Source: an uncultured Traorella sp.
GTDB taxonomy: Bacteria; Bacillota_I; Bacilli_A; Erysipelotrichales; Erysipelotrichaceae
Direction of reading: 5' to 3'
NCBI RefSeq assembly: GCF_944327115.1
Contig: NZ_CALVGS010000133.1
Location: 1-47,691 of the forward strand
Length of the DNA: 47,691 nucleotides
Shown here: in pieces, positions 3,492-24,740 of the stretch
Position numbering within the stretch: the first letter of the stretch is position 1
How the letters are laid out: every line of letters begins with the position of its first letter
Notes under the pieces: model-generated
Seen by the model: the letters and a program-made list of their open reading frames with translations, nothing else
Told to the model about the DNA's origin: nothing
The model's database searches: none
Translations under genes and position numbers: made by a program

Positions 3492-4484
3492 ATGAAGAAA
3501 ATATTTTTTTTGATTTTATGTCTGTTTATAAGCGGATGTCAGATCAAACAGAGTCATTATACAGAAAAACAACAAGAGATCCTTCGTGAGGAGGATGTGT
3601 TGGAATTTGCGGAAAATAACTGTGAGCAGGTTGCTTCACTGCAGCTGATGCTGGATGAGGAAGCTTTTCAAAAAGGATATATCGAAGATTATTGCCGGAT
3701 GGATCTGACTTCTTCGTCACATGTGAATTTTCTTTTGGAAAGAGGATTGAGTGATGAAGATGTAGAGGGTTACAGTGCGATTCCTTATTTCAGGGAAGAA
3801 AATCTTGAACGTTATTTAAAAGCTGAAGGCAGCTATGAAGAAAGGGTATTGAATGTAAACATGAATATGGATCTAAAACCATTTGAAATGATTTCCATTG
3901 TCAATGATTTTTCTGACATGACCTTGCTGGTGAATAAATTCAATGCGCTGCCGGAAGGATATGTTCCTGATGATATGGTCCATGTCAAATATGTCTGTAC
4001 GCAAGGAATTGATTATTCATGTACAATGATGGATCAGGTAGTCTTGCGTCAGGAAGCGGAAGAAGCTTTTGAACGGTTTGTCGAGAGTGCCTTGGAGGAA
4101 AAGGGCATTGGGATCGTGGCGATTGCCGCTTATCGCTCTTATCAGTATCAAAAAGATTTATATAATTATTATTTGCCGATCTATGGGCAGGAAAGAACCG
4201 ATCAATTCTATGCCCGCCCCGGACAGAGCGAGCATAACAGTGGTTTAGCGGTAGATATTACCTTTGATCACATTCGTTATACGGATATTGAAAATCATGA
4301 AGCCTATCCATGGATCTTAGAAAATATGCATCGTTTTGGCTTTATTTTGCGTTATCCTGAAGATAAGCAAGAGATAACCCGCTATGGCTATGAAAGCTGG
4401 CATCTGCGTTATGTCGGTGCAGAAGCCGCAGCGATCATGTATGAGAACAATTGGTGCCTTGAAGAATATTTAGCACGAAAGTGA
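3492..4484 (+). CDS. Lipoprotein D-alanyl-D-alanine carboxypeptidase (VanY/M15B family)
   Basis: The 330-residue product opens with a lipoprotein signal: basic MKK, a hydrophobic stretch and the lipobox ISGC with Cys16 as lipid anchor. The C-terminal 120 residues are an M15B peptidase domain, with SEHNSGLAVD (His248, Asp255) and ESWHLRYVG (Glu301, His304) supplying the zinc ligands and catalytic glutamate. Such enzymes trim the terminal D-alanine from peptidoglycan stem peptides, acting outside the membrane. Residues 20-165 are a less conserved region whose role is unclear. The gene is transcribed from its own extended -10 promoter and is followed after 7 bases by another lipoprotein gene, so the two are probably one operon. 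Nothing suggests glycopeptide resistance: no VanS/R or ligase genes are near. Confidence 0.9.
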   Translation: MKKIFFLILCLFISGCQIKQSHYTEKQQEILREEDVLEFAENNCEQVASLQLMLDEEAFQKGYIEDYCRMDLTSSSHVNFLLERGLSDEDVEGYSAIPYFREENLERYLKAEGSYEERVLNVNMNMDLKPFEMISIVNDFSDMTLLVNKFNALPEGYVPDDMVHVKYVCTQGIDYSCTMMDQVVLRQEAEEAFERFVESALEEKGIGIVAIAAYRSYQYQKDLYNYYLPIYGQERTDQFYARPGQSEHNSGLAVDITFDHIRYTDIENHEAYPWILENMHRFGFILRYPEDKQEITRYGYESWHLRYVGAEAAAIMYENNWCLEEYLARK

Positions 4485-4491
4485 GGAAGTT

Positions 4492-5631
4492 ATGAAGAAA
4501 GTAAGCATGGTGCTGGCAGCTTTTCTGCTGCTGGCTTGTTCAACAAAAAATGAAGATCAGGATCCGCTTGTCTGTGTTTATGAGCCAAGTCCGATCACAG
4601 TTGTTTCTTTTTCGGGAGTCGGGGATAATCTGATCCATGAAACGGTGTATCTGGATGCATTGACATCTGATGGCAGTTATGATTTTACGAAGATGTATGA
4701 GGATGTGGCGGATGATATGAGAAAGAGCGATATTGCTTTTATCAATCAGGAAACAATACTGGGTGGCAGCGAATTGGGATTGAGCGGTTATCCGAGCTTT
4801 AATTCACCTAGTGAAATTGCTTCTGACTTAAAAGAAAGTGGTTTTAATCTGGTCAATCTGGCAACAAATCATACGTTGGATCGAGGATTGTCCGGTATTG
4901 TCAATGAATTGAATACCTTTTCTTCTGTGAAAGGGATGGTCGTTGATGGTGCTTATACGTCACAAGAAGCTTATGATACGATTCCAACGTTTGAGGTCAA
5001 AGGCATTACTTTTAGTTTTTTAGCTTATACCTATGGCACCAACGGTATCCGGCCGGAGTATTCCTATGAAGTTTCTTATTTTGATGATGCACAGATTACA
5101 AGTGATGTACAACGGGCAAAGGAAATCAGTGATGTTGTCATCGTGAGTGCACATTGGGGTGATGAGAATTCGTTTGTTCCGAATAGCTTTCAACGTCATT
5201 ATGCGCAGTTATTTGCCGATCTGGGCGTTGATGTGGTCATTGGTACCCATCCGCATGTGATCCAGCCTGTTGAGTGGGTGAGCGGTGAGATGGGAAATCG
5301 GACGCTGGTGGTATATTCGTTAGGGAATTTTATCGGTGGTATGCTGACGACGAATAATGCGATCGGTGGTATGATCCAATTTGACTTTGTGAAGGAAGAG
5401 GATGATATTTATATCGATCATGTAAGATGGGTGCCGCTGATGATTCATTTTGAAGGGAATGCCGCCAATATCAATGCTGAACGCTATAATTATAAATCCT
5501 ATAAGGTTTCCGATTATACGGATGAACTGGCTTCCAAGCATGTATTAAATGGCTATGATGGCAATGTGGTTTCTTTAGATTATATACATGAAATTACCGA
5601 TCGGGTGATCGATGCGTCATTTTTGGAGTAA
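4492..5631 (+). CDS. CapA-family lipoprotein (PGA_cap metallophosphatase-like)
   Basis: The ATG at 4492 has GTGAGGAAG upstream; 379 residues. MKK, a hydrophobic stretch and the lipobox LLAC (Cys16) mark a lipoprotein. The rest follows the PGA_cap/CapA pattern, a calcineurin-like metallophosphatase fold: FSGVGDNLIHE near residue 40, NQETILGG near 84, NLATNHTLDRG near 120, SAHWGDEN near 220 and IGTHPHVIQPVEW near 248. These hold the Asp/Asn/His residues expected to bind metals. Relatives take part in poly-gamma-glutamate export or are of unknown function. No CapB or CapC gene is nearby, so capsule synthesis is not supported; a cell-surface hydrolase is the more cautious view. It is coupled to the VanY gene upstream and the radical SAM gene two bases downstream. 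Confidence 0.88.
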   Translation: MKKVSMVLAAFLLLACSTKNEDQDPLVCVYEPSPITVVSFSGVGDNLIHETVYLDALTSDGSYDFTKMYEDVADDMRKSDIAFINQETILGGSELGLSGYPSFNSPSEIASDLKESGFNLVNLATNHTLDRGLSGIVNELNTFSSVKGMVVDGAYTSQEAYDTIPTFEVKGITFSFLAYTYGTNGIRPEYSYEVSYFDDAQITSDVQRAKEISDVVIVSAHWGDENSFVPNSFQRHYAQLFADLGVDVVIGTHPHVIQPVEWVSGEMGNRTLVVYSLGNFIGGMLTTNNAIGGMIQFDFVKEEDDIYIDHVRWVPLMIHFEGNAANINAERYNYKSYKVSDYTDELASKHVLNGYDGNVVSLDYIHEITDRVIDASFLE

Positions 5632-5633
5632 GC

Positions 5634-6524
5634 ATGGAGTGGATAGAAGCAAAAAGCCTTCTTTCTAAAAATAAATGTCCTGAAGAATGGTTTGGTTTTG
5701 ATTATAATCTGAATCTGTATAAGGGCTGTTGTCATGGCTGTATCTATTGTGATTCGAGAAGTCAGTGTTATCGGATCGACCGCTTTGATGTGGTCCGAGG
5801 TAAAAAGGATGCCGCTTTGATCCTTGAAAAGGAGCTGCGTCATAAAAAAAGCAGGGGCATCATTGGGATGGGAGCCATGTCCGATCCTTATAATCCCTTT
5901 GAAAAAGAGGTTCATCTGACAAGAGAGGCGCTCATGCTTATCGAGCGTTATGGTTTTGGTGCGGGAATTACGACAAAAAGTGATCTGATACTGGAAGATT
6001 TGGAGCTTTTGAAAAGAATTCATGAAAATATGACAACGGTCGTTAATTTTACGATCACGAGTGCTTCTGATGAATGTTCTTTAAAAATTGAACCACATGT
6101 TGCCGTATCGTCAAAACGGTTTGAGGCTGTGCGAAGATGTAAGGAAGCAGGTCTGATATGCGGCATCATCATGAATCCTGTTTTACCGTTTATTACGGAC
6201 AGCAAAGAAAATATTTTAAAAATCATCGAAATGGCCCACTTGTGTCATGCGGATTATATCATGACGTATATGGGAGTCACATTGCGGCAGAATCAGCGGG
6301 ATCATTATTATAAAAAATTAGAGGAACTTTATCCGGGCCTTTCTTATCAATATCAGCGTATCTATGGCAATCGCTATCACTGTGAATCGTTAAAATGGCG
6401 TGAAAATTATGAGCTGTTGAAAGAGGAATGTTTAAAAAGAGGGATCCTTTATCAAATGGAGGATATCGTGAAGCTGATCAGATCTCATAAAAAAGAAGTA
6501 CGTCAGCTCTCACTGTTTGGCTGA
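5634..6524 (+). CDS. Radical SAM protein of the SPL (SplB-like, COG1533) family
   Basis: The ATG at 5634 follows the CapA stop codon by two bases, with GGAG at 5625-5628 inside the upstream gene, so translation is probably coupled. The 296-residue product contains Cys32-x3-Cys36-x2-Cys39 in KGCCHGCIYC, the ligand set for a [4Fe-4S] cluster that cleaves S-adenosylmethionine. Next come GMGAMSDPYNPFE (about 80-92), the SAM-contacting region, and TTKSDLILEDLELL (about 113). The family includes spore photoproduct lyase and many unassigned relatives, often annotated as DNA repair photolyase. Whether this one repairs DNA cannot be decided here; the cysteine 'SPL' family name reflects similarity only. 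No sporulation gene is adjacent. Confidence 0.85.
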   Translation: MEWIEAKSLLSKNKCPEEWFGFDYNLNLYKGCCHGCIYCDSRSQCYRIDRFDVVRGKKDAALILEKELRHKKSRGIIGMGAMSDPYNPFEKEVHLTREALMLIERYGFGAGITTKSDLILEDLELLKRIHENMTTVVNFTITSASDECSLKIEPHVAVSSKRFEAVRRCKEAGLICGIIMNPVLPFITDSKENILKIIEMAHLCHADYIMTYMGVTLRQNQRDHYYKKLEELYPGLSYQYQRIYGNRYHCESLKWRENYELLKEECLKRGILYQMEDIVKLIRSHKKEVRQLSLFG

Positions 6525-6527
6525 TTT

Positions 6528-6538
6528 TGTGCTATAAT
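6528..6538 (+). promoter_or_regulatory. Extended -10 promoter immediately upstream of recG
   Basis: TGTGCTATAAT is a perfect extended -10 (T-R-T-G-n-TATAAT). The hexamer ends at 6538 and the recG ATG begins at 6545, exactly where initiation is expected, and no Shine-Dalgarno sequence lies between. A -35 is weak at best. This predicts a leaderless recG message, or one depending on read-through from the radical SAM gene. Confidence 0.6.
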
Positions 6539-6544
6539 ATCCGC

Positions 6545-8539
6545 ATGGAATTAAAAGAGATCACAACGCCAAAAAAAATTGAAATCTTAAAGACCATGGG
6601 AATCGAAAGTGTTGAGGATATATTGACGCATTATCCTTTTCGTTATGAGGAACATGAACGTAAGCCGATAAGTGAATGGAAGATCAATGAAAAGATTTTT
6701 ACAAGCGGTGTCATCTGTTCATCTGCCCGTGTCATTCGTTTGGGGGGCAAGAAAAGCATGACCCGTTTTTCAATGATGATCGATGATGAAGAATTTTTTT
6801 GCAGTATCTTTAATCGTCCATGGACAAATATCTTTCCTGTCGGCAAGACCTTGACGATCAGCGGTATTTATCAGGGAGGCAATAAGATTACCCTGACAAA
6901 TGTTAATTCAATGCCGATTGAATCGCAGCTGGGCTTGCAAAGCGTTTATTCCACGACGCAGGCATTATCCCAGAAGGATTGGATCAAGCTGGTCGATAAG
7001 GCCTTGGAGGTATGCTCAGATAAGATCGAAGAGCGGATTCCGGAGGAATACCGCTTGAAATATAAGCTATTGCCAAGAAGGGAAGCTCTTTATTTCATTC
7101 ATAAGCCGAAGACCCGGCATGCGCTTGTCCAGGCGCTTCGGACACTGAAGTATGAGGAATTTTTGATTTTTCAGTGCTGTATGCAGATCAGCCGCAGTGA
7201 AAATATGAAAATTCAGGGTGTAGGTAAGGAGTTTTCAAATGATGAGGTATATGAGCTGGCACGTAATCTTTCCTTTGAACTGACCGGTGATCAGAAGTCA
7301 TGCATTGATGAGATCTTACATGATCTGCATGCTTCGACGTGCATGATGCGCTTGCTTCAGGGAGATGTCGGCTGTGGAAAAACGCTGGTTGCGGCTTTTG
7401 CCGCTTATGCTTGTGTCTGTGCGCATAAGCAGGTGGCTTTTATGGCTCCGACAGAGATCCTGGCGAAACAGCATCTGGCCACTCTTTCGAAGGTCTATGA
7501 AGGCTTTGGTGTACGCTTGCGGCTCTACTGTTCTTCTTTGAAGAAAAGTGAAAAAGAAGAGATCTTAGAAAAGCTTACTAAAGGACAATTGGATATCCTC
7601 GTCGGAACGCATGCGCTTTTTCAGGACGATGTCCATTATGCGGATCTGGGTTTGGTGATCACGGATGAGCAGCATCGCTTTGGTGTGGAACAACGCAGAA
7701 AACTGTTAAATAAAGGGAAAAAGGTCGATATGCTTTTAATGAGTGCGACGCCGATCCCGCGAACGTTGGCTTCTTCTATTTATGGTGATCTGGATGTTTC
7801 AACGATCAGAGAATATCCAAAGGGAAGGAATGTCACTCAGACGTATTATATTGCTTCAAAAAGCATGAAACCGATCTTAAAGGATGTGCTTATGAAGATC
7901 GATGCAGGTGAACAGTGTTATGTGGTTTGTCCCAGCATCGAAGAAAATGAAGATTATAAGATGAGCAGCGTCATTTCAATATATGAAGGAATGTGTAAAA
8001 TCTTAAAGGGATATCGCATCGGACTTCTTCACGGTCAGATGAAAAGTGAAGAAAAAGATGCAGTCATGAATCGTTTTCTTGCTCATGAGCTGGATATCTT
8101 AGTTGCTACCAGCGTCATTGAAGTCGGTGTCGATGTGAAAGATGCGAATATCATGGTGATCTATGATGCCCACCGTTTTGGTTTGAGCCAGATCCATCAG
8201 CTTCGCGGACGTGTGGGGCGGGGTGAACGTCAGGGAATCTGTTACCTTTTAAGTGATACGAAGGATGAAGAAAGCATTGCCCGCCTTAAAAAGCTGGAGG
8301 AATGTCATGACGGCTTTGAGCTTTCTTTTTATGATCTGAAGATGCGGGGTCCGGGAGATATCCTCGGCAAGCGTCAAAGCGGATTGCCAAGCTTTATATT
8401 GGGAGATCTTGTTCAGGATTCCAATATTTTGAACAGTGCCCGTGAGGATGCGGTGGAAATTGTAAAACATATTGAGGATTATCCAGGCTTGAAAAAGATT
8501 TGCGAAAAATATACTTTAGAAAATAAATATCTTGATTAA
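6545..8539 (+). CDS. recG: ATP-dependent DNA helicase RecG
   Basis: The 664-residue product has the RecG layout: an N-terminal OB-fold wedge domain (about 50-150), then two helicase domains. Motif I, LLQGDVGCGKT, is near residue 272, the DEQH box (ITDEQHRFG) near 373, SATPIPRT (motif III) near 398, and HQLRGRVGRGE (motif VI) near 550. RecG remodels stalled replication forks and branched DNA by reversing and unwinding Holliday-like junctions. Start: ATG 6545 is favoured; a TTG 18 bases upstream is in frame but lies within the -10 region and has no ribosome-binding site either. The protein is of usual length for Firmicutes RecG (about 680). It sits 20 bases after the radical SAM gene and precedes rnc. 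Confidence 0.95.
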   Translation: MELKEITTPKKIEILKTMGIESVEDILTHYPFRYEEHERKPISEWKINEKIFTSGVICSSARVIRLGGKKSMTRFSMMIDDEEFFCSIFNRPWTNIFPVGKTLTISGIYQGGNKITLTNVNSMPIESQLGLQSVYSTTQALSQKDWIKLVDKALEVCSDKIEERIPEEYRLKYKLLPRREALYFIHKPKTRHALVQALRTLKYEEFLIFQCCMQISRSENMKIQGVGKEFSNDEVYELARNLSFELTGDQKSCIDEILHDLHASTCMMRLLQGDVGCGKTLVAAFAAYACVCAHKQVAFMAPTEILAKQHLATLSKVYEGFGVRLRLYCSSLKKSEKEEILEKLTKGQLDILVGTHALFQDDVHYADLGLVITDEQHRFGVEQRRKLLNKGKKVDMLLMSATPIPRTLASSIYGDLDVSTIREYPKGRNVTQTYYIASKSMKPILKDVLMKIDAGEQCYVVCPSIEENEDYKMSSVISIYEGMCKILKGYRIGLLHGQMKSEEKDAVMNRFLAHELDILVATSVIEVGVDVKDANIMVIYDAHRFGLSQIHQLRGRVGRGERQGICYLLSDTKDEESIARLKKLEECHDGFELSFYDLKMRGPGDILGKRQSGLPSFILGDLVQDSNILNSAREDAVEIVKHIEDYPGLKKICEKYTLENKYLD

Positions 8540-8541
8540 AA

Positions 8542-8552
8542 TATGATATAAT
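8542..8552 (+). promoter_or_regulatory. Extended -10 promoter of rnc
   Basis: TATGATATAAT lies across and just after the recG stop codon region, identical to the promoter core at 3463-3473. Predicted initiation is near 8559, leaving a leader of about 13 bases with GGAGG at 8563-8567. Confidence 0.6.
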
Positions 8553-8571
8553 GGGGGAACATGGAGGAAAT

Positions 8572-9252
8572 ATGGAAATATTCGACTGGCTTAAAGAAAG
8601 AAATATCGAGGTAAATGATAAAAATCTGATACAGAATGCGTTTGTTCATTCATCATATGTGAATGAACATCGTACTTTTAAAAGCGATAATGAGCGATTG
8701 GAATTTATGGGAGATGCTGTCTTGCAGGTATGGTCGGCCAGAAAGCTTTTCGAGCTTCAGCCGCCATTGGATGAGGGGCATATGACGACATTGCGTGCGC
8801 AGCTTGTCAGTGAAGCAGCTTTGGCACAATATACACGGGAATTGAAGCTGAATCAGTTTTTATTGCTGGGAGTCGGTGAAGAAAAGACCGGAGGTCGTGA
8901 ACGTGAATCGATCATGGCGGATATGTTTGAGGCATTTATCGGGGCATTGTATCTGGATAGCGGCTTTGATAATGTCTGCAAGGTATTGGAGAGCGTGATC
9001 ACACCGCATATTTTGGCGCCTAAGGCTGAAAATCTCATTGATTATAAGACCAAGCTCCAGGAATATGTGCAGGCAGATGCCCGCAGGACCGTCAATTATG
9101 AGGTCATTCATATGGAGGGCCCGAATAATCAGCCGGTATTTGAAGTAATCGTAAAGATGGATGATATCATTCTTGGCAAGGGTAAGGGTCCTTCCAAGAA
9201 AAAAGCTGAGCAGGCAGCAGCAAAGGATGCTTTTGAGAAAATGGTGAAATAG
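8572..9252 (+). CDS. rnc: Ribonuclease III
   Basis: The product is 226 residues from ATG 8572, which follows GGAGG by four bases. An upstream in-frame ATG at 8551 overlaps the promoter -10 and is unlikely to be used. The RNase III signature NERLEFMGDAVLQV is near residues 38-51, with Glu/Asp side chains for the catalytic Mg2+ ions, and the second acidic cluster (ADMFEAFIGALYLDSGF) near 113-130. A double-stranded RNA-binding domain (about 155-226) ends with KGKGPSKKKAEQAAAKDA. The enzyme processes rRNA precursors and other structured RNAs. In many Firmicutes rnc is next to smc and ftsY; here it lies between recG and polC. Confidence 0.95.
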   Translation: MEIFDWLKERNIEVNDKNLIQNAFVHSSYVNEHRTFKSDNERLEFMGDAVLQVWSARKLFELQPPLDEGHMTTLRAQLVSEAALAQYTRELKLNQFLLLGVGEEKTGGRERESIMADMFEAFIGALYLDSGFDNVCKVLESVITPHILAPKAENLIDYKTKLQEYVQADARRTVNYEVIHMEGPNNQPVFEVIVKMDDIILGKGKGPSKKKAEQAAAKDAFEKMVK

Positions 9253-24335: not shown

Positions 24336-24383
24336 TACTAAATTCCAACAATCTTTTTGCTTGATTTATTTTAAAATGCATTC

Positions 24384-24740
24384 ATGAAAGATATGATCGC
24401 TTATAAAAATCACACAGAGTATGTGCATTTGCATTGCTGTTATCAAAATCTTTATGATGTTCTTTTAAGAGTTGATTTTCTTGATTTTATGGAAAGGATG
24501 AAACGACATCCGATGACCCATGAGCTGACGTGGGTACAAAGAATCACGTTTTTCTTCCATCGTCTTCATTATTTTATCTTTGAAGCGGATCTGGAGATTC
24601 TTCGTGAAGCCTTTGATTCGTTGCGCATGGCCTATCAGGAATTGAAGAAATTGGAGGCTGATGAGGAAATGCTGGCAGATTATGCGTGGATCTTAGAAAA
24701 AATGAAACAAATGATGATTGATAGGGGCCATCTTGATTGA
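24384..24740 (+). CDS. Hypothetical protein (118 residues)
   Basis: I do not recognise this protein. It is 118 residues, soluble, rich in aromatic and His residues at the start (TEYVHLHCCYQNLYDVLLRV), and mostly predicted helical, with a coiled-coil-like end (residues 80-115). The codon pattern and length support a true gene. No ribosome-binding site lies upstream of ATG 24384; a possible -10 (TAAAAT, 24372-24377) ends six bases before it, as for recG, so it may be leaderless. The gene is bounded downstream by a terminator. Confidence 0.6.
   Translation: MKDMIAYKNHTEYVHLHCCYQNLYDVLLRVDFLDFMERMKRHPMTHELTWVQRITFFFHRLHYFIFEADLEILREAFDSLRMAYQELKKLEADEEMLADYAWILEKMKQMMIDRGHLD

Follow-up and report, generated by a model that had tools for sequence, protein, structure and literature searches.

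A predicted leaderless start for recG behind an extended −10 element in an uncultured Traorella sp., with counterparts across the Erysipelotrichaceae

How is a recG gene expressed when a promoter element lies almost against its start codon and no Shine-Dalgarno (SD) sequence stands before it? The question is raised by a 47,691-nt stretch of DNA (contig NZ_CALVGS010000133.1; hereafter the window, along which all positions are counted) from an uncultured Traorella sp. whose genome (G000) spans 2.23 Mb in 133 contigs. The forward-strand ORF at 6545–8539 encodes a 664-aa protein that homology and profile matches identify as RecG (748 bits to NCBIfam NF008165, cut-off 711, with TIGR00643 also over its cut-off). 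In the window sequence, the gene opens with ATGGAATTAAAA at 6545, directly after the hexanucleotide ATCCGC (6539–6544, +), which is expected to be untranscribed and forms the 6-nt spacer between the ATG and an extended −10 promoter element, TGTGCTATAAT (6528–6538, +; TATAAT core at 6533–6538, +). A first-pass annotation had described a perfect extended −10 six bases before the recG ATG, and rereading the sequence verified both the element and its position. The whole intergenic stretch amounts to 20 nt (6525–6544, +) and holds the entire promoter core and no SD.

That annotation had further held that none of the in-frame recG starts is preceded by an SD; the three seen in the window sequence (TTG 6527, ATG 6545, and ATG 6596) all lack one. 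More specifically, the AGGAGG-like SD that marks SD-led genes was not found 5 to 13 nt before the recG ATG. The start at 6545 is taken as correct because SD-led relatives begin with MELK or MDLK at the same residue; the alternatives at TTG 6527 and ATG 6596 were rejected, being likewise without an SD while the N-terminus aligns with the SD-led relatives at 6545. By its sequence, TGTGCTATAAT fits the extended −10 type of sigma-70 promoter (TGnTATAAT, in which a −35 is dispensable), making it a predicted promoter. Reading of the window sequence found no −35-like hexamer at a spacing of 16 to 18 nt from this −10, and a promoter scan omits the site because the scan demands a −35. The gap of 6 nt places the end of the −10 box at the distance from the start codon (about 6 to 7 nt) that characterizes leaderless genes. 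Over its initial 60 nt, the predicted leaderless message shows no unusual folding (z 0.09). The 120 nt spanning the junction are better folded than their shuffled versions (z −2.36), owing partly to a stem at the 3′ end of the upstream radical SAM gene that, by eye, was not seen to be kept in the sister species G001.

We regard leaderless transcription as the best explanation of this junction and, judging from sequence, put its probability at roughly three in four. The extended −10 TGTGCTATAAT would suffice, with no −35, for recognition by RNA polymerase carrying the housekeeping sigma factor; RNA would start at or beside the first base of the recG start codon, seven positions downstream of the −10, and the resulting 5′-AUG mRNA would be bound directly by the ribosome with initiator tRNA, no SD taking part. 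Initiation on a 5′-terminal AUG is a general mechanism described in PMC6431027 and PMC10783764. Any functional benefit of a leaderless recG is one that we infer.

Comparison of the junction among relatives, which the first-pass annotation had proposed as a check, gives a divided answer within the genus. In G001, whose RecG is 89% identical to that of the window genome, the junction is retained base for base: the −10 element and the spacer are the same, as are all 21 bases before the recG ATG, where the recG DNA overall is 82% identical and 211 of 594 third positions (about a third) differ in codons for the same residue. At 34 bases, the unbroken identical run at the junction ranks near the top of such runs in the 2,013-base comparison, whose maximum is 37. 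A congener, G002, whose RecG is 65% identical, is instead SD-led, with AAAAGGAGG and no −10 nearby. Neither G003 nor G004, both incomplete genomes, gave a recG-grade match.

A search of the family found some match in 193 of 195 genomes, in some of them solely to related helicases. We inspected recG starts in 127 loci and assigned 119, dropping eight without an assignable start; G025, G058, and G189, in which the matched part started either deep within the gene or too near a contig end, were left out. With a −10-like hexamer defined by five of six matches, A2 and T6 being fixed, 32 of the 119 starts have one 5 to 8 nt before the ATG, and the distribution peaks at the gap seen in the window: 23 at gap 6, 6 at gap 7, 2 at gap 8, and 1 at gap 5, with 0 to 2 at each of gaps 0 to 4 and 9 to 13. 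Adding TGn to the hexamer leaves 19 at gap 6 and at most one at each of gaps 0 to 5 and 8 to 13. The 32 −10-adjacent cases are spread over 11 of 47 genera (10 without G076, a doubtful case at gap 5 that lacks TGn and is of the hairpin type). An SD of at least 5 bases precedes none of the 32, versus 38 of the 87 other starts (Fisher p 4e-7, uncorrected for relatedness), and several of the nonadjacent starts have TGnTATAAT or a close variant 21 to 33 nt upstream, followed by an AAAGGA-type SD. Among 80 named recG loci (74 given a start, 5 unassigned, and L250 omitted), 4 of the 8 that belong to the Erysipelotrichaceae by title (L186 to L193) show gap 6 or 8; of the remaining 66 (Bacillales, Lactobacillales, other Bacilli, and a few more), none has a gap of 5 to 8.

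On a RecG tree of 73 rows, −10-adjacent and other starts need at least seven changes, a parsimony minimum in which rows without an assigned start are uncounted and to which 40 added rows contribute, 26 of them chosen for being −10-adjacent. Well-supported contrasts set G000/G001 against G002 and G096/G069 against G021. The gene would have shifted between leaderless and SD-led states several times. The original proposal that recG appears to be leaderless stands as a prediction, carried by the position of the element, its conservation in G001, the family-wide spike at gap 6, and the exclusion of SDs from −10-adjacent starts; the SD-led recG of G002 weighs on the other side.

The exact pattern TGNTATAATN6ATG occurs once in the window versus 0.16 expected, and this single site is only suggestive because 0.16 matches are expected by chance; the weight of evidence comes from the genome and the family. 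Across the whole window genome there are 14 sites at gap 6, 5 at gap 11, and 7 at gap 15 (reversed-pattern controls: 2, 2, and 1). At 13 of the 14 gap-6 sites, the ATG begins an ORF no shorter than 135 aa, and for nine of these the exact pattern also stands at the G001 ortholog (recG, dnaE, signal peptidase I, a YigZ-family protein, an RlmI-like methyltransferase, a queuosine-precursor transporter, a VanZ-like protein, a pullulanase-type protein, and one unknown); the other four are tilS, an IS1182-like transposase fragment, a sigma-54-interaction-domain gene, and a PRD-domain regulator. In a sample of 20 stretches of this genome, −10-like hexamers without TGn at gaps 5 to 7 are not above shuffles (15 versus 13.6). 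Since these stretches come largely from contigs that had already given hits, the gap histogram and shuffle test made on them overstate gap 6, and the whole-genome counts are the unbiased ones. The window holds another −10-adjacent start (24372–24386), with TAAAAT six bases before the ATG, no SD, and no TG; the gene behind it (24384–24740) encodes a 118-aa protein with no Pfam or NCBIfam match, and the arrangement could be due to chance.

The preference for gap 6 extends through the family. In 115 family genomes, we counted 1068 sites at gap 6, 497 at gap 15, and 127 for the reversed gap-6 control; per genome, gap 6 is more frequent than gap 15 in 89, less frequent in 18, and equal in 8. A class-wide draw of 149 genomes gives a gap 6:gap 11 ratio of 171:58 in the Erysipelotrichaceae (14 genomes) and of 764:904 in the 21 other families together (135 genomes). 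A similar excess appears in a few small families outside the Erysipelotrichaceae (f18, 23:8; f19, 27:11; f16, 14:6), so the Erysipelotrichaceae are not alone in the gap-6 habit; these three are possibly further lineages with many leaderless genes.

A second gene, dnaE, was followed in 30 loci (L336 to L365), taken as the best from the 56 genomes that matched out of 59 searched, and 29 starts were assigned. In most of these, a TGn extended −10 lies no more than 26 nt from the start. Over the 29 starts, TGn plus a −10-like hexamer is counted 4 times at gap 6 (G000, G001, G061, and G026) and 18 times at gaps 16 to 25, with none between, so the two states of dnaE argue for an extended −10 anchored to the start codon. 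The leader would be either absent or some 10 to 20 nt long with an SD, taking its length from the gap, and the pattern is leaderless-like in both G000 and G001.

The genes around recG bring in another possible source of its message. Upstream, all on the forward strand, lie a VanY-type carboxypeptidase gene found by profile search (3492–4484), the first of a tightly spaced run; a CapA/PGA_cap-like gene with an SD-like GAGG (4492–5631); and a gene for a radical SAM protein (5634–6524) that resembles the PA0069/Rv2578c kind at scores below the NCBIfam cut-offs and from which read-through is possible. The spacings from the VanY-type gene through to recG are 7, 2, and 20 nt. The last of these runs from the radical SAM stop to the recG ATG, and translational coupling there would require co-transcription as well. 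On the 3′ side follow an RNase III gene, identified by a profile match, and PolC, recognized from its sequence without a profile scan. An ATG of the RNase III gene at 8551 sits within TGATATAAT (8544–8552), and the start of that gene is more likely the ATG at 8572, which is preceded by GGAGG and would have a short leader of about 13 nt (8544–8574).

It may thus be asked whether recG is supplied mainly by read-through from the VanY/CapA/radical SAM run, with termination and reinitiation at an SD-less ATG and the −10-like string unused or of minor use. This is possible in the window genome because nothing there clearly qualifies as a terminator ahead of the −10 and 20 nt separate the upstream stop from the ATG; the close same-strand spacing and the SD-like strings at the upstream genes speak for it, and SD-less starts without a −10 do exist, as recG genes that follow a hairpin in this family often have neither. 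We nonetheless consider it unlikely that read-through is the main source, given that the −10 and its spacer are kept in G001 and that the family shows both the gap-6 spike and the exclusion of SDs. Relatives in which the upstream gene may be cut off from the promoter add a further argument. In nine −10-adjacent relatives (G069, G016, G180, G176, G035, G078, G104, G141, and G064), a terminator-like hairpin ends 18 to 35 nt before the recG ATG, just upstream of the −10, and its place between the upstream gene and the −10 argues against read-through there. In G069, where the gene upstream of recG is fakA (Pfam FakA-like_C), the T-run of the hairpin leads directly into TGTTATAAT; at junctions of this type, read-through seems unlikely and a leaderless message seems the simplest supply. 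Hairpins within 90 nt were found at 16 of 32 −10-adjacent, 2 of 38 SD-led, and 24 of 49 other recG starts, several of them far upstream or weak.

Both sources may also act together, read-through mRNA giving a base level and the leaderless promoter an independently controlled extra supply. This arrangement, which overlaps the explanation that we prefer, is a serious prospect at somewhat less than even odds: the 20 nt between the radical SAM gene and recG show no terminator and the promoter core is conserved, but relatives with a hairpin before the −10 seem to manage without read-through. That the element is a functionless TATAAT-like string in an A+T-rich gap is very improbable. The 0.16 exact matches expected per window allow for such an accident, whereas conservation, the family spike, SD exclusion, and the surplus of gap-6 sites over those at gaps 11 and 15 across the genome do not favor it, and chance was rejected as the main explanation on the conservation in G001 and the family spike.

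In many relatives, recG begins 6 to 18 nt after a terminator-like hairpin located directly 3′ of the upstream stop, usually with neither an SD nor a −10 before the ATG (L173, L149, L113, L176, L181, and others; genera g26, g24, g58, g6, g16, g47, g35, and g8). The stem sequences vary and the layout is kept; the upstream gene is fakA in L113, and the remaining loci were judged by their similar endings. One might speculate that ribosomes finishing fakA open the hairpin ahead of recG.

Returning to the leaderless reading, we place the recG junction of the window as one case of a family-wide habit. The Erysipelotrichaceae would place an extended −10 near start codons, so that recG or dnaE has no leader at gap 6 and a short, SD-bearing one at a gap of about 16 to 33. 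We tentatively extend this to a model, somewhat less probable than its contrary, in which promoters are tethered to start codons in this family, recG and dnaE repeatedly flip between leaderless and short-leader, SD-led states, and the extended −10 of recG may have arisen from a T-rich flank provided by the T-run of the upstream terminator, producing a compact terminator/promoter/start junction. Orthologs of recG and dnaE that are leaderless-like in one genome and SD-led in a close relative offer matched pairs for testing a missing leader. If tethering and flipping are true, the family is a natural experiment on leaderlessness and expression, e.g., under stress or altered initiation-factor ratios. 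For annotation, start finders that require an SD may misplace leaderless starts.

The first-pass annotation had called leaderless messages rare for such genes in Firmicutes, which overstates the case. Differential RNA sequencing of three streptococci gave 8.6 to 9% leaderless mRNAs, mostly conserved between species (8.6% in S. pyogenes; PMC6431027), leaderless genes were predicted in 56 of 209 Firmicutes genomes (PMC3160421), and 32 of 119 family recG starts are −10-adjacent here; lower counts are also on record, with only 15 leaderless genes in C. difficile (PMC7438776) and nine leaderless transcripts in Mycoplasma gallisepticum (PMC4245973). The anti-SD type of the class containing the Erysipelotrichaceae is given in PMC10783764; in PMC4245973, the class is named only among the references. 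Among titles and abstract openings, we found no report of leaderless transcription or of a leaderless recG in the Erysipelotrichaceae.

Of the systems already described, the predicted recG start most resembles the TA-led leaderless genes of Zheng et al. (2011; PMC3160421), which have a TANNNT/TAtAAT core about 12 bp upstream; the first T of the recG core is exactly 12 bp upstream. The TG before the recG box likewise recalls what that study reports for Lactococcus, with a TG peak in several low-GC genomes, although the Firmicutes that it names include Lactobacillales and Mycoplasma and its text does not contain "Erysipelo-". Pyogenic streptococci share extended −10 boxes and a leaderless status conserved between species (81% there), but leaderless mRNAs were measured in those species and are predicted for recG (PMC6431027). 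In Deinococcus-Thermus, too, a −10 region directly before an ORF is a promoter for leaderless mRNA; such ORFs amount to about 30% there, versus 14 exact sites in the 2.23-Mb window genome (PMC12340547). Mycoplasma gallisepticum combines a 5′-UTR mode near 15 nt with a few leaderless messages, akin to the short leaders that we infer here, but it belongs to a different class, its leader lengths were measured, and its leaderless transcripts number only nine (PMC4245973). As such, recG, as predicted, matches the known TA-led leaderless genes (PMC3160421), to which the present comparison adds this lineage, orthologs that switch state repeatedly, and junctions that pack terminator, −10, and ATG compactly together.
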